From: Hellea sp. | GTDB taxonomy: Bacteria > Pseudomonadota > Alphaproteobacteria > Caulobacterales > Maricaulaceae | Length of the DNA: 64,000 bases | Direction: 5' to 3' | NCBI GenBank assembly: GCA_013002305.1 | Contig: JABDKG010000043.1 | Location: forward strand, 1-64,000 | Shown here: positions 1-10,072 of the stretch, one piece after another | Layout of the letters: each line of letters opens with the position of its first letter | Position numbering within the stretch: position 1 is the stretch's first letter | Notes under the pieces: generated by a model | Database searches by the model: none | What the model was told of the DNA's origin: nothing | The model's input: only the letters and a program-made list of their open reading frames with translations | Translations under genes and position numbers: made by a program

Positions 1-654
1 ATCTTCGACGGGCGCGCCTTGGCGGTAGCGCCGGATCAGCCCGAAATTGCGCCAGCCCCGGCGCATAAATCCGTCGCGCTCATATTTGGCCGCCGAGCTC
101 GTGATCGCGCCCTTGATGCGCCGCAGCCGCCTTCGCCCTCGCCCGGCAGTTATCGCTTCAATTATTTTAACATCCTCGAACAGGGGCAAATCCGGATAGC
201 CGCCGACCGCCTCATAAAGCGCGCGCGAGATTAGAAGCCCCTGATCGCCATATGGCAAAGCCCAGGCCCGGCTGCGCAGCTGGGCGCAGGCCTCGATGAT
301 CCGCGCCCCGAGGCGCGAACTATCGAGCCGCAGCTTAAAATGACCGGCCTTGTCCGGATTGTTTTGGATATGATCATCGATTAGCGCGCGCCAGTTCTCC
401 GGCAGTCGGCTATCAGCATGGAGAAAGAGCAGCCACTCGGCGTCCAGCGCCAGCCGAACGCCGCGCCGCAATTGCGCCCCGCGCGACGCCGTCCCGATCG
501 CCAGATTAACGCCGAACCCCGCCGCCGCCTTTAGGCTCTCATCGTCTGAAAACCCGTCACTGACAATGATCCGTTCAACACCGCCGGAGAGCTGCGACAA
601 AAGCCGCGCCAGCCCGCCTGCATTATTTAGATTGGGAATGATAACCGTGATCAT
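1..654 (-). CDS. Family 2 glycosyltransferase (TIGR04283-like), 3' end beyond window start
   Basis: Reverse-strand translation from ATG at 654: MITVIIPNLNNAGGLARLLSQLSGGVERIIVSDGFSDDESLKAA...LLFLHADSRLPENW; open to the window edge. Confidence 0.85.
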   Translation of the reverse strand, partial: MITVIIPNLNNAGGLARLLSQLSGGVERIIVSDGFSDDESLKAAAGFGVNLAIGTASRGAQLRRGVRLALDAEWLLFLHADSRLPENWRALIDDHIQNNPDKAGHFKLRLDSSRLGARIIEACAQLRSRAWALPYGDQGLLISRALYEAVGGYPDLPLFEDVKIIEAITAGRGRRRLRRIKGAITSSAAKYERDGFMRRGWRNFGLIRRYRQGAPVED

Positions 655-668
655 AGGTCCAAACCTTA

Positions 669-810
669 CCCCGCATGCGCGGCCGAGCGAAGCGAAATCC
701 GCCGTCCCGTTTCAACCCGGCGGTTGGATGGGCGCCCAAACATTGGAATGGCGGATTACGGACGATGTCCTAATCCGCCCTACGGGCTTGGGTTAATCCG
801 GTGTATTTTA
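669..810. repeat. Degenerate copy of the 177-bp palindromic element
   Basis: Contains cgaagcgaaatccgccgtcccgtttcaa and tccgccctacgggcttgggttaatccggtgta, shared with copies at 2646, 4081 and 5337. Confidence 0.8.
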
Positions 811-819
811 TGCGCGCTT

Positions 820-1818
820 TTATCGCCGGACATCAAGGCTTTCATTGCCCATGGCGTAATAGACGTCATTAATACTGACGAGATTGAAATCACCCCGGAT
901 CGAATGTTTCAGCGCGCTCGCGGCGGCGGCGAATTCGATATTATCCTGACGCGCCATATCGGTTATCAGCCCGTGTAAAAGCCCAACCGCAAAGGCGTCT
1001 CCGCCGCCAATCCGGTCGACAATTCCGGCAACATTATAGGGCCGCGATTCCCAGCGGTCGGTACGGGTTACGAGCTCGGCGGATATACGGTGGTGGTCCA
1101 TCGTTATGGTTTCGCGCGTGGTCGCGGCAAGCGCGCGCAGCTCCGGGAACTCTTTGAGCGCGATTTTAAAAGCCTCGGCGCGGTCTTTAATCGTCTGCCC
1201 CATAACCAGACTAATATCGCGTTCATTAATCAGGGCGAGCGTGGCATAGCTCAGAATTTCGCGAATGATCGCCGGACCGTCGCCCTTCCAGTTTTCCCAC
1301 AGATAGGCTCTGTAATTCCCATCGAACGAGACCTTGACGCCCGCCGCTTTGGCCGCTTTGACCGCGCGCAACGCCGCCTTGGTTCCGTTCTCGCCTATGG
1401 CCGGCGTAATGCCCGACATGTGTAGCCAGGTCGCGCCCTTCAGGACGTCATCCCAGTCAATCGCATCCGCGCCAGCCAGCGCAAAGGCCGAATCTTTGCG
1501 ATCATACTCGATACGCGAAGGCCGAACGGCGGCGCCGAAACTCATAAAATATAAACCCATGCGCCCCGGAACCGAAAGCACCGCACTTGTATCGACATTA
1601 TATTTTCGCAGCTCCGCCAATGCAGCGCGGCCCAGTGCGTTGCTCGGCAATATTGTCGCCATAACGCTGTGATGTCCGAATTGCGCCAAAGACGCGGAAA
1701 CATTGGCTTCGGCGCCGCCGACATGAACATTCAGCTTCCCGGTTTGCAGAAGCTGTTCGCCGTCCGGCGCAGCCAAACGCAATAGAACTTCCCCGAAACA
1801 GACTATTTTATGAGCCAT
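820..1818 (-). CDS. kdgK: PfkB-family sugar kinase, probable 2-keto-3-deoxygluconate kinase
   Basis: MAHKIVCFGEVLLRLAAP...VGGAEANVSASLAQFG...GIVDRIGGGDAFAVGLLHGL (PfkB signature GGGDAF). Confidence 0.85.
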   Translation of the reverse strand: MAHKIVCFGEVLLRLAAPDGEQLLQTGKLNVHVGGAEANVSASLAQFGHHSVMATILPSNALGRAALAELRKYNVDTSAVLSVPGRMGLYFMSFGAAVRPSRIEYDRKDSAFALAGADAIDWDDVLKGATWLHMSGITPAIGENGTKAALRAVKAAKAAGVKVSFDGNYRAYLWENWKGDGPAIIREILSYATLALINERDISLVMGQTIKDRAEAFKIALKEFPELRALAATTRETITMDHHRISAELVTRTDRWESRPYNVAGIVDRIGGGDAFAVGLLHGLITDMARQDNIEFAAAASALKHSIRGDFNLVSINDVYYAMGNESLDVRR

Positions 1819-1893
1819 ATTCGCCCCTCAATCCATTGAAGCAGTCTATCCCGTTACCGCGGATTTTTCAATGGCTGCTGATGCGTCTATCCA

Positions 1894-2107
1894 ACAAGTA
1901 CCCCGGATCAAGTTTCTACCTTACCCCGTAGGGCGGATAGAGCGAAGCGAAATCCGCCGTCCCGTTTCAAATGGTTTTTTCCAAAAAATATCCTCGCCGT
2001 CAGAACGGCGCATTTCGAGCGCGATGCGCTTTCTATACGCCCTACGGGTTTAGGTTAATCCGTGGTACTTGGTTGGTACGGGGTTGGGTTAATCCGTGGT
2101 ACTTGGT
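1894..2107. repeat. 177-bp-type palindromic element with tandemly duplicated right end
   Basis: caagtaccccggatca...ccccgtagggcggat...acgccctacgggtttaggttaatccgtggtacttggt, then a second ggttaatccgtggtacttggt. Confidence 0.85.
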
Positions 2108-2297
2108 GACAGGCCGGTCGGCCGGTCGGTGGCGTCATAGTTGAAGTTAATCCCGCCAATGGATTTAACATTACCGCGGCTGTCATAGGTCAGGCCGCGC
2201 GTGCCGGTCTCGCCTGTATCGACGGACTGGGTGACGCGGTTAAAGTTATTATAGCTCATCGCTATATGGCGCGCGCCATCGATAGTAACGCTAATTT
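2108..2297 (-). pseudogene. Rhs core fragment
   Basis: Reverse translation SVTIDGARHIAMSYNNFNRVTQSVDTGETGTRGLTYDSRGNVKSIGGINFNYDATDRPTGLS matches the Rhs core at 8790-8700 (RGNVTSLGGIDMNYDATDRPTGLS); interrupted by the palindromic element. Confidence 0.85.
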
Positions 2298-2540
2298 CTA
2301 GTTACGCTTATCCTTCAACAGCATAAAGGTAATAAATACCGATCCGACAGAAGCGATTAATATACTTATAAGATTTCGTCTAAAAAATATATCCCACTCC
2401 AACACTTTCCCAGCCTGATCGCAGGCTTGAAAACCGTCACAGAAGAAACGATATCCATTTATCATAGACCAAATAACTCCCATTGCAAAAGTAACGATAA
2501 ACACAGTGCAATAAGTTTTAAAAATAGAACGCTTTGTCAT
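2298..2540 (-). CDS. Small membrane protein, putative immunity protein (paralog of 3585-3845)
   Basis: MTKRSIFKTYCTVFIVTFAMGVIWSMINGYRFFCDGFQACDQAGKVLEWDIFF...; two hydrophobic segments; follows a toxin-tip fragment. Confidence 0.7.
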   Translation of the reverse strand: MTKRSIFKTYCTVFIVTFAMGVIWSMINGYRFFCDGFQACDQAGKVLEWDIFFRRNLISILIASVGSVFITFMLLKDKRN

Positions 2541-2552
2541 ATAGTTACGCCC

Positions 2553-2645
2553 TTACGGTTCTTCATCTATTATCTCAACAGCAGTCCCACCAGCAACTTC
2601 TCCCGATGCTGCACCAAGTGCGGCACCTCCGCTGGAGAGATGTCT
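2553..2645 (-). pseudogene. C-terminal fragment of Gly/Ala-rich tip (paralog of 3853-4080)
   Basis: GRHLSSGGAALGAASGEVAGGTAVEIIDEEP*; truncated at its 5' side by the repeat. Confidence 0.65.
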
Positions 2646-2822
2646 ACCAAGTACCCCGGATCAAAATTCAACCTTACCCCGTAGGGCGGATTAGCGATAG
2701 CGTAATCCGCCGTCCCGTTTCAAATGATTGCTTCCAGAAAAAATTCTCACCGTCAGGATGGCGCATTTCGGGCTTTGCCCTCTATACGCCCTACGGGTTT
2801 GGGTTAATCCGGTGTACTTGGT
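2646..2822. repeat. Intact 177-bp palindromic element
   Basis: accaagtaccccggat...ggtgtacttggt; inner hairpin ggcggattagcgatagcgtaatccgcc. Confidence 0.92.
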
Positions 2823-2893
2823 GGCGATTGACGAGGGTTTTCTCGAGGATATTACCAAGGGATTTATATTTGAATGTGCCGAGGCCGTCCCTG

Positions 2894-3340
2894 TCAAAAC
2901 TTTTTCAAAGAATCATGCTTAATAAAATGATACTCTTTGGTCGCGGGTCCGCTGCATTTCAAAAGTGGGAAAAACTCTTTGGTCTTTTTTGAAACTAACG
3001 ATTCTTCGAAATATTTTTTTCTAACATGCTCACTCGTGGGATCTAGGAACGATGAAATATAATACTCTATGTATTTTTGATCGTGCTCTCCGAGCATTCT
3101 CAATTCACCCGATCTAATACTTGCAGTAAATTCACTTTTCCAGATTGGATCACCCAACCTCATCCAACTGAGAAACCGAAATAAGTTTTCATACACCGTA
3201 GATTTTACAACAGAATCAATCGGGTTTGGATATAACTCTGAAATTTTTTCAAAGTTTTCATTTGAATAATAGGCAGCACTCTTCTTCAAGTTTTTCATTA
3301 TTATAGGTTCGAGCAAATTATATAATAGGTTTTTAAACAT
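2894..3340 (-). CDS. Hypothetical protein, candidate immunity protein
   Basis: ORF open, AT-rich, from ATG (MFKNLLYNLLEPIIMKNLKKSAAYYSNENFEKISELYPN...); starts just after the stop of a tip fragment. Confidence 0.6.
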   Translation of the reverse strand: MFKNLLYNLLEPIIMKNLKKSAAYYSNENFEKISELYPNPIDSVVKSTVYENLFRFLSWMRLGDPIWKSEFTASIRSGELRMLGEHDQKYIEYYISSFLDPTSEHVRKKYFEESLVSKKTKEFFPLLKCSGPATKEYHFIKHDSLKKF

Positions 3341-3348
3341 AATTTTTG

Positions 3349-3513
3349 TTAGTCCCCATGATCTCCCAATGATCTTAAAAATCTTTTTATCCAATTATCG
3401 TTTTGTCTTGCCGCTGATTCCGTATGATCAATAATTCTTTGTATAAGTGGATCGCCTCCGGGATGAGGTGCTTCACCTGGTAAAGTGTTAGGGTCAGGAT
3501 TTGGCCCACATAA
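3349..3513 (-). pseudogene. Polymorphic-toxin tip fragment
   Basis: Open reverse frame CGPNPDPNTLPGEAPHPGGDPLIQRIIDHTESAARQNDNWIKRFLRSLGDHGD*, beginning within the 3491-3596 element. Confidence 0.5.
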
Positions 3514-3596
3514 TTAGTCGTAAAAACAGAGCTTTAGCGTCGAAGTGGGCCACAAGGCACGCTTCGCTTTATCTTGTTAAACAACTAATCTGACCC
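3491..3596. repeat. About 106-bp MITE-like element with inverted termini
   Basis: gggtcaggat...ctaatctgaccc ends; internal ggcccac/gtgggcc and taattagt/aactaat inversions. Confidence 0.6.
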
Positions 3597-3845
3597 ATTT
3601 CCTCCCTTTCCCTTATCCTTCACGAACATAAATGTGATAAAGGCTGACATAGCTACCAACCATAACAAAGTTAAAAGCTCTCGCTTCCAAAACACATCCC
3701 AGCTTAAAACCTGACCAGTGTTATCACACGCTTGGAGGCCGTCACAAAAGTAACGATACCCATTGATGACTGACCAGATTGTGCCGGCAACGAACAGTAT
3801 TAAAAATACTATGAGATAAACTTTAGCGATGTATCGTTTATTCAT
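3585..3845 (-). CDS. Small membrane protein, putative immunity protein (paralog of 2298-2540)
   Basis: MNKRYIAKVYLIVFLILFVAGTIWSVINGYRYFCDGLQACDNTGQVLSWDVFW...; 44/78 identities to the 2298 ORF by hand alignment. Confidence 0.75.
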   Translation of the reverse strand: MNKRYIAKVYLIVFLILFVAGTIWSVINGYRYFCDGLQACDNTGQVLSWDVFWKRELLTLLWLVAMSAFITFMFVKDKGKGGNGSD

Positions 3846-3852
3846 TTTGGCG

Positions 3853-4080
3853 CTACCTTTCCAGCCTGTCGTCTATGACTTCCATGGTAGTTCCGCTGGT
3901 TGCTTCCCCAATAGCGGCACCTAAAGCAGCTCCACCATTAGACAAGTTGCCCGCACCGCCAAAGCCAGAGGCACCCGTTAACGCACGACCCGCAAGGTTG
4001 CCCGCTCCAGCTCCAAGTGCTGCACCAGCTCCGGCTTGCGCACCTGCGGAGACAACTCCCAATCCATCAACTGTTCCTGT
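3853..4080 (-). pseudogene. Gly/Ala-rich polymorphic toxin tip, 5' truncated by repeat
   Basis: TGTVDGLGVVSAGAQAGAGAALGAGAGNLAGRALTGASGFGGAGNLSNGGAALGAAIGEATSGTTMEVIDDRLER*. Confidence 0.65.
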
Positions 4081-4257
4081 ACCAAGTACCCCGGATAAAA
4101 ATACAACCTTACCCCGTAGGGCGGATAGAGCGAAGCGAAATCCGCCGTCCCGTTTCAACCAAGAGGGCGCGACCCAAAACCGCAACAATTGCCCGGCGCA
4201 TTTCGGGCTTTGCCCTCTATACGCCCTACGGGTTTGGATTAATCCGGTGTACTCGGT
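4081..4257. repeat. Intact 177-bp palindromic element
   Basis: accaagtaccccggat...atccggtgtactcggt; one reverse frame is stop-free and in frame with the 3853 tip. Confidence 0.92.
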
Positions 4258-4432
4258 TGACCCCGCGCCGCATTTGCGCCCCGCGTCTCGCGGCCAGGCG
4301 CAAGCTCTCATCGCCGGAGAGGCCATCACTGACAATCACAGAAATATCCGCCCCTGCCAGCTGCGCCAAAAGCCGCGACAGCGCCGCCTCATTATTCAAA
4401 TTAGGGATAATCACCGAAACCATAGGGCCCAA
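4258..4432 (-). pseudogene. Duplicated 5' fragment of the window-start glycosyltransferase
   Basis: MGPMVSVIIPNLNNEAALSRLLAQLAGADISVIVSDGLSGDESLRLAARRGAQMRRGV vs MITVIIPNLNNAGGLARLLSQLSGGVERIIVSDGFSDDESLKAAA...RGAQLRRGV. Confidence 0.85.
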
Positions 4433-4575
4433 CCCTACTCCGCGCGCGCAGTATGGCGAAGCGAAAAACGGTGGGTTGGTTTAATTGGGCGGTTTTGGAC
4501 CAAAACCGCAATATCGGGCCAACGCTGCGCTCTGATTCGCCCTACGATAAGGCATTTATCCAGGGTAGTTTGTAA
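4433..4575. repeat. Degenerate palindromic element upstream of the glycosyltransferase fragment
   Basis: cataggg-cccaaccctactccgcgcgcg...gcgaagcgaaaaacgg...attcgccctacg; mirrors 655-810. Confidence 0.65.
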
Positions 4576-4604
4576 GTGAATGGATGATCCGCTATTACAA
4601 ATAT

Positions 4605-5066
4605 CTAACTTGTTTCGTCCTGATAGAACACGCAGAATACTTCTTCATTTTCTTCAACAATACATTTTACAATAAAATCCCGTTCTGGGAACTCAATGTT
4701 CAACTTGGCCCTCCACATTTTTTCCATAGAAAATCCTAAGTATTTTTGTTTTTGAAAATCCAATTCTTCAAATATGCTATCAATACATACTAGATTCATC
4801 CAAAAGTCTGGGCCCTTGTCGTGCGGTTCGGAAGCAATTGTACTTTCATACTTTTGTATAGAAAATTCATCACTTAAGAATACACGGTCTTTAAATAACA
4901 AAAATTCGGGCCAACAGACTTCAACAAAGGCCAATATAAAGTCGGGGTCTATGGACTGTGTTTTCTGAAGAATATGAACGTAATCGAACACTGAAAAATT
5001 TTTTCCAATGTTAGCGTCATTCCATTTTTCGAGATTTGAAAATGGTGGTAGATTTTTGATATTCAA
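4605..5066 (-). CDS. Putative immunity protein
   Basis: ORF starts TTG 7 nt after AGGAGGTG, directly following the TAA of the preceding tip; MNIKNLPPFSNLEKWNDANIGKNFSVFDYVHILQK... Confidence 0.7.
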   Translation of the reverse strand: MNIKNLPPFSNLEKWNDANIGKNFSVFDYVHILQKTQSIDPDFILAFVEVCWPEFLLFKDRVFLSDEFSIQKYESTIASEPHDKGPDFWMNLVCIDSIFEELDFQKQKYLGFSMEKMWRAKLNIEFPERDFIVKCIVEENEEVFCVFYQDETS

Positions 5067-5336
5067 TTATTCACCTCCTGGGATTTCTTCTGGTAGCGGT
5101 TTTCGCACCGTCGCTTTCCCCGGAAAAGGCGTACCGTCTGGCGCGAAATTCAATTCGTTTTCTTTCACGTTTGGACGAGGTATGTCACCATGAGATTGTC
5201 CAGAGCCGCGATATTGTTTGTAGGTACCGTCTCCATTATGTGTTGTATACTGCCCATTTGGACCTGGCTTTTCGATTATTGTGTGAGGCGCACCTTTTGC
5301 TTCAGGCAGCGGGTCTGGACGACTACTTCTATTCTT
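5067..5336 (-). pseudogene. Polymorphic toxin C-terminal tip (orphan), 5' truncated by repeat
   Basis: GKNRSSRPDPLPEAKGAPHTIIEKPGPNGQYTTHNGDGTYKQYRGSGQSHGDIPRPNVKENELNFAPDGTPFPGKATVRKPLPEEIPGGE*. Confidence 0.75.
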
Positions 5337-5513
5337 ACCAAGTACCCCGGATCAAAATTCAACCTTACCCCGTAGGGCGGATTAGCGATAGCGTAATCCG
5401 CCGTCCCGTTTCAACCGGATGGTTTCGGCCCAAACCCGCAACATCGGCTTGGTGCATTTCGGGCTTCGCCCTCTATACGCCCTACGGGGTTGGACTTAAT
5501 CCGAGTACTTGGT
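5337..5513. repeat. Intact 177-bp palindromic element
   Basis: accaagtaccccggat...ccgagtacttggt. Confidence 0.92.
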
Positions 5514-5613
5514 TACCATCGACACAGCCGCTTCCATTCGCATCAGGTTCCCCATAATTGCGACCTATATCAAAATGAGGTATAGTGAGGCCTCAACTGC
5601 GAAGGGGCGAAAC

Positions 5614-6888
5614 ATGGTCGTAGGAGTGTCAAAAGGTTTTCTAAAGCTTTCCACGGCGATACTCGTAGCGACGAGCCTGGTAGCATGCCCTGATGGCGAC
5701 CAAACCGAAAACGAGGAAAACCCGAACTCTCCGGAATTGACCGCCGCGCAGGCCGCTTGCCAATTGCCGGAACTGCCCGGTCTGGACCGCGCCGGGACAG
5801 TGCCCGATACTGCATATTTTGTGAATGGCCAAAAAGTTAAAAGGGGTCTATCGCTAACCGGTGATACCATCGTGGCCAACCATAAGGACATTTCCCCATA
5901 TTACCTTATATTCAAAAGCGTAGACCCAAACGGTTTCGAAAAGGCGGGATATTCTCTGACTATTATTAGCGAGACCGACGATATTACCCTAGAATCCAGC
6001 GTGCCAATTAATGCCGGAACCCGTCAGATCGATAAAAACAGCACAAATGGCAAAGACGGAGGCCCAATCAAGTTTTTAGCGCCGCAGGGCTCGATTACAA
6101 TTTCAGGAAACATCAACGGCAACAGGGGTAGTATTTTCGGCGGCGATGGCGGCGATATTATCTTTTGTGCCAGAGATAAAATCTCAATCGAGACGGGCGC
6201 TTTTATTGTTGCCGGTCACGGCGGAAGCTACGCCCAAGACGCGAAAAACGACATTACCGAAAAAAATCACACCCTTATCGGACGACGTGGCGGCCGCGGC
6301 GGTAATATTTATTTCATCGGTACCGGACCTGCCCCTGTCACTGTGACGATAAACGGACGGGTCACCGCGGGAAAAGGCGGAGCCGGCGAAGCCGCGGACA
6401 TTACCGGTGGAATAGGCAATCGATCCATAACCGGACATGGCGGGACTGGCGGCGAAGGCGGGACCGCATATTTTGACAACGCGACCGCTACAATTGCAAA
6501 AGCCGAATATTTACGACCGGGCGACGGCGGCAATGGTGGCAACGCCAGCGTCTGGGGGTCGGACGGCGAAAGCGGACCCCCGCCTAGCGACGGCGGCAAC
6601 GCGGTTGCCGAAGGCGGCTGGGGCGGAGCCGCCGGGAAAATACCGCTCAATGGATTTGGTGCTAAACACGGTAACGGCGGAAACGCTCGGGCTTACGCTG
6701 GACGCGGAGGTACGGATCCCGGCGGAACCATAACAGCGGCGTCCGGGTCAGCCTCGGCGTTTGGAGGCGGCAGCGGAACCGGCAAACGAACGAATACAAA
6801 ACCGGTCGAAACGCCCCCTGACCCATCCGGAACCGGAGTTTCTGCGGCCCAAGACGGCGAACCGGGACCCGTACAAAAAACACCGTAG
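5614..6888 (+). CDS. Gly-rich secreted lipoprotein (beta-helix/PGRS-like repeats)
   Basis: MVVGVSKGFLKLSTAILVATSLVAC lipobox; repeated GGxGG turns (GGDGGDI, GGRGGRGGNIYF, GHGGTGGEGGTAYF, GDGGNGGNASVWG). Confidence 0.8.
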   Translation: MVVGVSKGFLKLSTAILVATSLVACPDGDQTENEENPNSPELTAAQAACQLPELPGLDRAGTVPDTAYFVNGQKVKRGLSLTGDTIVANHKDISPYYLIFKSVDPNGFEKAGYSLTIISETDDITLESSVPINAGTRQIDKNSTNGKDGGPIKFLAPQGSITISGNINGNRGSIFGGDGGDIIFCARDKISIETGAFIVAGHGGSYAQDAKNDITEKNHTLIGRRGGRGGNIYFIGTGPAPVTVTINGRVTAGKGGAGEAADITGGIGNRSITGHGGTGGEGGTAYFDNATATIAKAEYLRPGDGGNGGNASVWGSDGESGPPPSDGGNAVAEGGWGGAAGKIPLNGFGAKHGNGGNARAYAGRGGTDPGGTITAASGSASAFGGGSGTGKRTNTKPVETPPDPSGTGVSAAQDGEPGPVQKTP

Positions 6889-7022
6889 CGAGATCGCGCT
6901 CTCTGTCTGCCGTCCCGTTTCAATCAAAAGAACTCGGTCTAAAACCGCAATATCGGCCCGGCGCATTTCGGGCGCTCGCCCTCAATGACACCCCACGGGG
7001 GGTTAATGCACCATACTTAGTA
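6886..7022. repeat. Degenerate palindromic element
   Basis: caccgtagcgagatcgcgctctctgtctgccgtcccgtttcaatc...gcgcatttcgggcgctcgccctc...accatacttagtaac. Confidence 0.7.
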
Positions 7023-7023
7023 A

Positions 7024-7545
7024 CTATTTGACAAAGTCAGACATTAATATTGGTACCGATGTTAATATGACATGTGAATCAGCTTCGTTTTCGTTTTCAC
7101 AATTGAGTGCTATAATAAGCGGCCTAAACCAATATTGATCTTCAAATAAATTTTGCTGATTATATAACCCGCTCAAATCTAACTTTAATCGCGCACGATC
7201 GCCGGGCGTAAAAATTATTGTTTCAACGTCTTCTGATAACACGATCCCAAGAGGCGGTCTTTCTAACCGTCGTCCATCTGTTCCAATTATGTCGGCGTCG
7301 TGACGACGACTAGATTTTCCGTCAATTGCGCTTTTATAAATGCAAATATTTTTCTCAGAGGAATTTTCAAAATTAAGATCGATAATTCCGAGTCCGTCAT
7401 TGTATTTATTGATTTTCTCAACAATCAAAGATTCTATAAGCATTACGTTCTTTTTTGGAAATTCCGGGATATTTGAGTACTTCGAAGTTACGCATGCGAC
7501 CTGACTAATTATCACGAACAAGAGAGCGATCCTATGCCTGGTCAT
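7024..7545 (-). CDS. Lipoprotein, putative immunity protein to Rhs metallopeptidase tip
   Basis: MTRHRIALLFVIISQVACVTSKYS lipobox; start overlaps the Rhs stop by ATGA. Confidence 0.75.
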   Translation of the reverse strand: MTRHRIALLFVIISQVACVTSKYSNIPEFPKKNVMLIESLIVEKINKYNDGLGIIDLNFENSSEKNICIYKSAIDGKSSRRHDADIIGTDGRRLERPPLGIVLSEDVETIIFTPGDRARLKLDLSGLYNQQNLFEDQYWFRPLIIALNCENENEADSHVILTSVPILMSDFVK

Positions 7546-8790
7546 CCGCAATTTCCTCCGAATACTAAACATTGATAATTATCATTGTTGTTCAATGCCA
7601 TGGAGGGGTGTTTTTGTGCAAGATATCTTGCCCCGGATTGACCGTAAGCTTTTCTAATAACATTACCGTTTTGATCAATGAATATTCGATGGCTTGCGAC
7701 ACTAGCGGGCGTATTTGATGGAAGCAATAAATCACTCATACCGATATTGTGGCCAACTTCATGAGATATTGCATACGCATTGGCTTTTAAAGCTGCTGAG
7801 TTGTAACCTGGATGTACCGTAATTTGATCACCATTGAGCGTCGCTGTCATTGCGGCGTTTCCGTATGCTTGATCAGAAAATTTAATCGAGGACCCTTCAC
7901 CTTCAACGCCAATTTGGTCATGTATCTTAACAATTGTATTTGAAACAGACACCAAATTTTCAATCGTTGCAGATCCACTACCAAACATCTCTTCAAATTT
8001 TTGTTTTGTTGAAACTTGAGCAGTAGAAAGTTGCTCACCACTCACCGACGCATCAATTAATTCATCAAGATCTTTCCATTCATTCATCAATTCGGTTCTT
8101 GCGTCGGATGCAGCTTGATGGATCGAAGCACACCGCTCATCTCCTTCGCATTTTAACATACCGGTCGGATCAGTCGCATTAATCGGATTGCCTCCGACAT
8201 ACCCATACCGGTTAAACATCAGGGGCTGTTCAACACTGAACTGTACCGGATCGTGACTCAAAAACCGCCCGATCACCGGATCATAATACCTCGCCTGCAT
8301 ATAAGTCAGGCCGGTGTCGGTGTCTTTAATATGGCCGGTGAAGCCGGCCTGGTTATCGTTAGCGGCGTTGTTGACGAGTGAGATGCCAAAGGGCGTATAT
8401 TGCTCGGTCCAGAGGATAGCGCCAGTGTCATCCGTGCCCGCGACCGCGCTGCCGAGGTGATCATGGTGGAGGTAAGTCACTTCATCTGTGTAGTTCAGCC
8501 TCGTGCCGATAGATTTAACCCGCGCGACGGTTTTCCCGTCCATTTTGATATAATTGGTGACATGGTCATCCGCCGTGCCCGGGGCGAGCTGCACCACATA
8601 GGCCAGGCTGCCGGACGCATCATAAACATTATAGCGGGTTGTGCTCGTGCCATCGCCGTTGGCGATCACGGATTTAACCCGGCGGTTATGACCATCATAG
8701 CGGTAAGCCCCGCTCTCATCGCCTGACAGTCCGGTCGGACGGTCGGTGGCGTCATAATTCATGTCGATACCGCCAAGGGACGTTACATTG
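7542..8790 (-). CDS. Orphan Rhs C-terminus with HExxHxxGxxD metallopeptidase-like tip (5' truncated)
   Basis: RYYDPVIGRFLSHDPVQFSVEQPLMFNRYGYVGGNPINATDPTG (Rhs core end) followed by tip containing AISHEVGHNIGMSD; no N-terminus present. Confidence 0.9.
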
Positions 8791-8864
8791 CCCCGGATCA
8801 AAATTCAACCTTACCCCGTAGGGCGGATTAGCGATAGCGAAATCCGCCGTCCCGTTTCAACCGG
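8791..8864. repeat. Left half of the palindromic element
   Basis: ccccggatcaaaattcaaccttaccccgtagggcggattagcgatagcgaaatccgccgtcccgtttcaacc. Confidence 0.88.
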
Positions 8865-8900
8865 ATCGTTGGGAATATAGCGTCGACATTGGAATAGCGC

Positions 8901-9512
8901 TTAATAGCGGCCGTCGAGGCGGCGTCTGGGCAGGTCGTACCGGCGCTCGAACTGGCGGACGCGGTAGCGCGCATCATCCATTTCGCGCTCCAGACGGCGG
9001 GCCTTATAGCGCAGCCGGTCGCGCTCTTTATCGGTCAGATTTAGCGTCCGGTCATTGAGGCGGGCGCGGACGTGATGGAGCGCTTCGGCCTTGTCATAAT
9101 AGCGATCGACGAGCTGTTTATGCTCGCGTTTAATGGCGTAACGGGCGCGGCCCTCTTCATAACCCGGCGCATATTCGGCCGAAAGTTCGCCCGCGCAAAC
9201 CTGATTATAGGCGCCGCCATTTTCGCCGCGTTCAAAGCCGCGCTGGAAAGTGCAATAGCTGACAACGCCGCGATCATAGCCGGCCCAGTAAGCGCGGTTG
9301 TCGACCGAGGCGCCATATTTGGTACATTTCTCGGCGACCTTTTCGAGGCGGCTCGAGGCCTTGCCATTGGCGCCGTCCTTATAGCCGACCGCTTCCCAAT
9401 TGCCGGCCATGCACGTGTCCTCGGAGATGGTCGAGCAGGCGGACAGGCCAATCAGGGCCGCCGCTAAGCTTGTGAACATTAAGAGTTTTTTCTTGCGCCG
9501 ATAAGTCATCAT
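8901..9512 (-). CDS. DUF2799-like lipoprotein
   Basis: LIGLSACSTISEDTCMAGNWEAVGYKDGANGKASSRLEKVAEKCTKYG...YWAGYDRGVVSYCT. Confidence 0.8.
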   Translation of the reverse strand: MMTYRRKKKLLMFTSLAAALIGLSACSTISEDTCMAGNWEAVGYKDGANGKASSRLEKVAEKCTKYGASVDNRAYWAGYDRGVVSYCTFQRGFERGENGGAYNQVCAGELSAEYAPGYEEGRARYAIKREHKQLVDRYYDKAEALHHVRARLNDRTLNLTDKERDRLRYKARRLEREMDDARYRVRQFERRYDLPRRRLDGRY

Positions 9513-9606
9513 GGGGCCTTTTAGCGCAATCGGCTTGAATAGGGAATGACGCGGCCGTTCATTTTTGCGACAGGATTATCAGAGCGCCGGAGGCGAGCAG
9601 CGGTCA

Positions 9607-9642
9607 TAAAAAAACCCGCTCACGGCCGAGCGGGTTTTAAAT
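9607..9642 (-). terminator. Rho-independent terminator of the 9659-10072 gene
   Basis: taaaaaaacccgctcacggccgagcgggttttaa GC stem with T tract. Confidence 0.75.
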
Positions 9643-9658
9643 TTAACTGCCGGAGCGT

Positions 9659-10072
9659 CTATTTGATCTTGTCTTTGACAACATCTGTGACGGCGTCTTT
9701 CGCCATATCTTTGCCCGCATCAACGGCTTCATCGACGATCACGTCAGCCAGGCTCGTGCCTGTATCGGTGGTGGTGGTTGACGAGGCGTCGGTGACTTCC
9801 GGACGGATTGTGACCGGGTACATACAATATAGGCCGTCATTGAGCTCATCGCCCGGGCACTCGGTAACGCCGAGCTGATTGCCGTCATAAATTTCGTCCT
9901 GATAAGCTTCGTCGCGGATCGGGACCAGGCAATAATCGCTGCCCTTAACTTTGACCATTGTGCCGCCTTCCGAGGTGCATTCCCGGTCATTGGTGATGGC
10001 GCTGGCCGAAGCTGCGAAAAAGGCTGTCGCTGCGATTGATGTTGCAACGGCGCCCAGAATAAATTTAGCCAT
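9659..10072 (-). CDS. Secreted hypothetical protein
   Basis: Signal peptide MAKFILGAVATSIAATAFFAASASA; conserved Cys; dedicated terminator. Confidence 0.65.
   Translation of the reverse strand: MAKFILGAVATSIAATAFFAASASAITNDRECTSEGGTMVKVKGSDYCLVPIRDEAYQDEIYDGNQLGVTECPGDELNDGLYCMYPVTIRPEVTDASSTTTTDTGTSLADVIVDEAVDAGKDMAKDAVTDVVKDKIK

Follow-up and report, generated by a model that had tools for sequence, protein, structure and literature searches.

A probable REPIN/BIME family crowded into decayed Rhs arrays of Hellea sp.

The palindromic element found at 2646–2822, 4081–4257 and 5337–5513 of the window, which is the whole 64,000-nucleotide stretch of DNA analysed here, very probably belongs to the REPIN/BIME class. 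GTAG-tagged REP hairpins stand head to head around a variable spacer and are enclosed by short inverted ends, and the element would be copied in trans by a RAYT and accumulate in Rhs arrays. It is apparently a new, species-specific REPIN family within a well-known class of bacterial repeats. Its sole unusual trait is the crowding of its copies in decayed Rhs arrays, whose breakpoints they form.

Copies, length and anatomy of the element

The genome (G000) comprises 2.94 Mb in 102 contigs, with the window on contig C97. A 177-position profile was built from the four best window copies, and all eight window copies were significant against it; the three copies of 177 bp gave E values of 1e-55 to 1e-60 against this profile, which was built from those same copies. 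Exact matches to CGTAGGGNGNAT numbered 36 in the genome and 2 for the reversed control, and the element is therefore far above chance. A genome-wide DNA search returned 31 matches on C97, C72, C47, C62, C41, C87 and C80, some of which represent one copy detected on both strands, and the copy number in the genome is about 20–25, mostly in a few clusters. The original prediction of three copies of exactly 177 bp, each with inverted ends and inner CCCGTAGGGCG arms, was confirmed, while its strict 177-bp length did not hold genome-wide. The other complete copies measure 174, 174, 175, 181 and 185 bp, so that 177 bp is the modal length within a range of 174–185 bp. The length differences are located in a hairpin loop (+4), in the spacer and in an 8-bp insertion beside the right REP.

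All eight window copies lie on the plus strand. Of the further five, the copy at 1893–2106, previously taken as partial or degenerate, consists of an essentially complete element (1893–2073, 181 bp) followed by a partial duplication of the right end (2074–2106). The remaining partial or degenerate copies proved to be real. They are located at 649–808 (left terminal repeat lost, E 2e-22), 4430–4570 (highly degenerate, E 3e-7), 6885–7020 (degenerate, E 3e-16) and 8789–8901, where the left half of an element is joined by its terminal repeat to Rhs core sequence (E 3e-27).

From the outside inward, the element is composed of a 16-bp terminal inverted repeat ACCAAGTACnCCGGAT, a link of 10–20 bp, CCC-GTAG, a hairpin and the spacer, after which the same parts follow in reverse order. 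In the copy at 2646–2822, the left terminal inverted repeat ACCAAGTACCCCGGAT (2646–2661, plus strand) is followed by the left REP with GTAG and the hairpin GGCGGATTA/TAATCCGCC (2681–2711, plus strand) and by the divergent spacer (2712–2759, plus strand). The right REP is inverse, with GTAG and the hairpin GGCGTAT/ATGCGCC with inner GGGC/GCCC (2760–2794, minus strand), and the right terminal inverted repeat reads ACCAAGTACACCGGAT on the minus strand (2807–2822). The GTAG tetranucleotide lies directly 5' of the hairpin on both arms, and the two REPs are arranged head to head around the less conserved spacer. Across the copies, the left arm folds into GGCGGATTA/TAATCCGCC or a variant of this hairpin, and the right hairpin is either GGCGTAT/ATGCGCC with inner GGGC/GCCC or GGCGGAT/ATCCGCC with GGAC/GTCC. 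Averaged over pairs of copies, the left terminal 16 bp are 96% identical, the right terminal repeat 80%, the REPs about 80% and the spacer core 46%, in agreement with the predicted strong divergence of the centre.

Covariation was assessed on 15 sequences, a set that takes in two GGTGCAT pairs at C23 and C41. In this set 93% of cells are paired, compared with 34–43% for slid structures, and 6 pairs and 17 cells are changed on both sides, compared with 4.4 cells in shuffles. The covariation score is 0.121 (0.058 in shuffles). A good part of the two-sided changes is supplied by the GGTGCAT pairs, and pair 127–137 varies among the core copies too. Both strands fold strongly, with z values of −6.1 and −4.5. 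No Rfam model matched the element copies within positions 1–10000 at E values up to 1. The length of 177 bp had also been read as 3 × 59; no coding meaning of this frame is evident, and most toxin-sense frames through the element hold stops. An in-frame coding role and a Rickettsia-like palindromic insert in genes were both rejected on the grounds of these stops and the variable lengths. One antisense frame is open in most copies and was not counted as coding evidence.

Candidate transposase and class assignment

A genome-wide search with Y1_Tnp and NF047646 found a single Y1 transposase, a RAYT at C23:2–361 (minus strand) that scores 133 bits against NF047646 (cut-off 80) and carries the HUH motif PEHLHCIW. 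The gene is incomplete at the contig edge: the part on C23 reaches model position 117 of the 146, so that the catalytic tyrosine is not visible. It resembles RAYT/TnpA-REP, the Y1 HUH transposases (NF047646, PMC8266576), in its equivalog match, in the HLH motif at the expected place and in the adjoining REP pair, and differs in being cut at the contig edge. The REP pair just upstream (C23:391–520, equal to L048:391–520) matches the element profile with an E value of 1e-9. It has the GTAGGG tag in common with the element, and the stretch after it is identical to the right link of the element at 15 of 18 positions. As to the RAYT with matching ends proposed for a search, one RAYT, a related REP pair beside it, and the common tag and right link were found, whereas the stems of the pair are GGTGCAT, not GGCGGAT. 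The C23 pair may serve a sister family. REPs with GGTGCAT stems represent a second type in the genome, with pairs at L048:391–520 beside the RAYT and at L034:3979–4083 on C41, and a single REP of this type at L048:11118–11148, at the opposite end of the RAYT contig.

Both the RAYT and the element occur in one of the ten genus genomes, namely the source genome, the exception being G001, where one REP gave a short match. The terminal motif ACCAAGTACNCCGGAT occurs 15 times in the source genome and 0 times in 397 other genomes of the order. A search with the end pattern gave one match in genome_contigs (Alteromonadaceae Bs31), as expected at chance level and in different surroundings, and none in viral_contigs; in the literature, the REP core letters matched nothing but primers, by chance. 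For the wider family, four RAYT-positive loci (L064–L067) were inspected. The RAYT homologues of L065 and L067 are 60% and 54% identical to the C23 RAYT, and both are adjoined by head-to-head GTAGGGTGGATTAG...TAATCCACC REP pairs with the stems GGTGGATTAG. L064 and L066 contain only single GTAGGG REPs (GTAGGGCGGGT), and no alignment to the C23 RAYT was obtained for these two loci.

The suggestion that the element is non-autonomous and REP-BIME-like is upheld by the GTAG tags, the covarying hairpins, the head-to-head pair and the RAYT elsewhere in the genome with its adjoining related REP pair. GTAG-tagged REPs form head-head (HH) dimers in which GTAG lies outside both hairpins (Di Nocera et al., 2013, PMC3733652). 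Like the HH dimers, the element is a heterodimer of two stem/loop types with a spacer of 20–100 bp, is mostly intergenic and coexists with a RAYT in the genome; unlike them, it is bounded outside the REPs by conserved inverted ends of 16 bp and occupies few clustered loci (PMC3733652). A high, dispersed copy number, which is typical of REPINs but not strictly defining, is not seen here. Clustering is the exception among GTAG REPs, as in GTAG-23 of T. roseum, and because such clustered families have been described, the low and clustered copy number is not disqualifying (PMC3733652).

The element also resembles the REPINs of Pseudomonas fluorescens SBW25 in its inverted REP doublet, conserved arms, compensatory changes and RAYT with an adjacent REP pair, which here is of a related type (Bertels and Rainey, 2011, PMC3116915). 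In SBW25 the REPIN spacer is divergent, and length and the capacity to form a hairpin were stated to be the critical features (PMC3116915). Of the length or structure constraint originally proposed, a strict length is not supported genome-wide, although REPINs of nearly constant length whose spacers diverge yet can fold have been published (PMC3116915). Differences from the SBW25 REPINs are the low copy number and the total length of about 177 bp (in GI doublets, the two 16-mers have their first residues 71 bp apart; PMC3116915). The outer 16-bp inverted ends fall outside the standard REPIN definition.

The decayed Rhs arrays

The array in the window is a decayed Rhs locus, which the original prediction missed and which is more informative than the element itself. 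An intact rhs gene is present at C87:65223–70163 (L035:3224–8164; 1646 aa, TIGR03696), and half an element lies about 430 bp past its stop, at the contig end of C87. The intact gene has a variable C-terminal tip and is followed by a small lipoprotein-like ORF. Outside this gene, seven Rhs core fragments were located, five by the whole-genome search and the other two by local BLAST, which covered ten contigs: C97:8167–8796, 2108–2271 and 2834–2889; C72:1848–1899, 3901–4029 and 4227–4282; and C47:7750–7796. The distance from each fragment to an element copy is at most about 45 bp, and sequence within 50 bp of an element copy makes up roughly 0.2% of the genome.

The Rhs-related features of the window given below are on the minus strand. 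A 5'-truncated rhs gene at 7542–8801 (TIGR03696) consists of core sequence (rhs 3732–4361) and a C-terminal toxin tip with a HEVGH metallopeptidase motif; the tip scores 26 bits against Aspzincin_M35, below the cut-off. The small lipoprotein-like ORF at 7024–7572 is, from its position and size, presumed to be the immunity gene of this tip. The core fragment at 2834–2889 (rhs 3577–3632) lies 11 bp from the right end of the copy at 2646, and that at 2108–2271 (rhs 3640–3803) abuts the element at 1893–2106. At the left end of each 177-bp copy lies a truncated toxin tip, recognized from its translation, and past the tip comes a small ORF. The orphan tips at 2541–2645, 3853–4080 and 5067–5336 start at the left ends of the copies at 2646, 4081 and 5337, respectively. 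Beyond the first two lie orphan immunity-like membrane proteins of 80 aa (2298–2540) and 86 aa (3585–3845) that are 56% identical to each other, and beyond the third is a presumed orphan immunity gene of 153 aa (4605–5066), so regarded from its position and size. The assignment of the small ORFs as immunity genes and of the tips as toxins is presumptive, being drawn from where they lie, how large they are and the Rhs context; four small ORFs were scanned, among them those at 7024–7572 and 4605–5066, and had no Pfam match.

Several other sequences adjoin the elements. Positions 4258–4432 of the window hold a 5' fragment of a glycosyltransferase-like gene; the fragment and the gene at the left edge (1–661) are about 75% identical, and a degenerate element follows the glycosyltransferase-like sequence at both places. 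A plus-strand glycine-rich lipoprotein-like gene with no Pfam match (5613–6888) lies inside the minus-strand Rhs array. On C47, a short duplicated stretch of a ParB-like gene is joined to an element end at L032:4293–4400 and L032:8250, and on C41 repeated fragments of a WD40/PD40-like gene adjoin degenerate elements (L034:5044–5283 and L034:6779–7007).

The copies share one orientation within every multi-copy contig (8, 5, 7, 2 and 4 copies). This orientation is opposite to the Rhs sense where Rhs is present, with the C87 call and one C47 call being marginal, and no p-value is given because the copies are not independent. Array duplication and strand-biased insertion could each account for the uniform orientation. 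Comparison of GC skew with replication-strand orientation showed agreement for C97, C87 and C47, weak agreement for C62 and C72, and disagreement for C41. The assembly is fragmented, and several arrays end at contig edges.

The arrays resemble, in decayed form, the orphan toxin-immunity loci that have been described for Rhs, CDI and T6SS (PMC3150448, PMC5361080). Intact rhs, core fragments, tips and immunity-like ORFs are shared with the portrayed Rhs orphan arrays (Poole et al., 2011, PMC3150448) and T6SS immunity arrays (PMC5361080). The joints differ: here they are REP-pair elements, whereas PMC3150448 and PMC5361080 report IS or transposon debris or homologous recombination. No report of REPs at Rhs-array joints was found in the portions of the literature searched.

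Spread of the copies and alternative readings

The copies at 4081 and C72:1888 are 94–99% identical in the left arm and spacer, but their flanks show no similarity within 200 bp, a pattern in keeping with the element having moved, or been converted, by itself. The copy at 2646 is a mosaic: 78 of 78 left-arm bases are identical to the copy at 5337, while its spacer agrees with that at 1893 in 27 of 36 positions and with that at 5337 in 18 of 36. A PHI-like test gave p 0.0008, a value that may be inflated by an alternative hairpin-loop block adding linked sites. Such mosaics, together with the clustering near Rhs debris and the uniform orientation, would suit a dead REP-pair repeat without present-day transposition that owes its spread chiefly to duplication and gene conversion inside the Rhs arrays. 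We regard this as unlikely, since near-identical copies with both flanks unrelated, and copies lying apart from Rhs (C41, C80, and C62 beside panD), need the element to have moved on its own in the past. No relative yielded an empty site; the neighboring KDG kinase gene, through which one was sought, has no orthologue in the genus, only paralogues of 38%.

Eight of the nine complete copies lack a flanking direct repeat of at least 3 bp and the ninth has one 3-bp off-register match, so that no convincing target-site duplication was observed. This near-absence is more in keeping with HUH/Y1 chemistry than with a DDE transposon. The MITE half of the original prediction, if taken as a non-autonomous DDE-transposon derivative moved via its ACCAAGTAC terminal inverted repeats, is consequently improbable. 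The sharp, nearly invariant and species-restricted 16-bp ends outside the REPs would be in its favor, and the GTAG-tagged covarying hairpins and the RAYT would be left unexplained. Integron attC sites have the core sites RYYYAAC ... GTTRRRY and are accompanied by an integron integrase. An integron-like recombination-site cassette, in which element, toxin tip and immunity gene move as one unit, is most improbable: the three window copies directly 5' of a toxin tip, the uniform orientation opposite to Rhs and the Rhs fragments (3577–3642 and about 3633–3807) flanking one element-tip-immunity block speak for it, but the element truncates tips at differing points, the Rhs cores are also cut at many positions (about rhs 3550, 3642, 3731, 3807 and 4094), some copies (C41, C80) lie apart from Rhs, and the ends ACCAAGTAC ... 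GTACTTGGT lack, by eye, the attC core GTTRRRY.

For the REPIN/BIME reading, we infer by analogy that the RAYT mobilizes the element. This is based on the biochemistry of TnpA-REP of E. coli, Stenotrophomonas and Marinomonas (PMC8266576). The RAYT (TnpA-REP), as a Y1 HUH single-strand nuclease for GTAG and hairpin on single-stranded DNA, would copy the non-coding element in trans, and the copies would accumulate in decayed Rhs toxin-immunity arrays. Insertion of the element or recombination between its copies would then set the boundaries between modules and cut Rhs cores and toxin tips at element ends, with the immunity-like ORFs staying open, and recombination between copies probably rearranged the arrays. 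A stronger proposal, that the REP pairs are dedicated Rhs joints at which RAYT or REP recombination swaps or disarms tips, spares immunity genes and drives the growth of orphan-immunity arrays, is doubtful.

The present analysis adds an apparently species-specific REP-pair family with sharp outer ends, a candidate partner transposase and a link to Rhs-array joints. Should it be borne out in strains, this would provide a concrete mechanism for cutting off displaced toxin tips while immunity genes persist.
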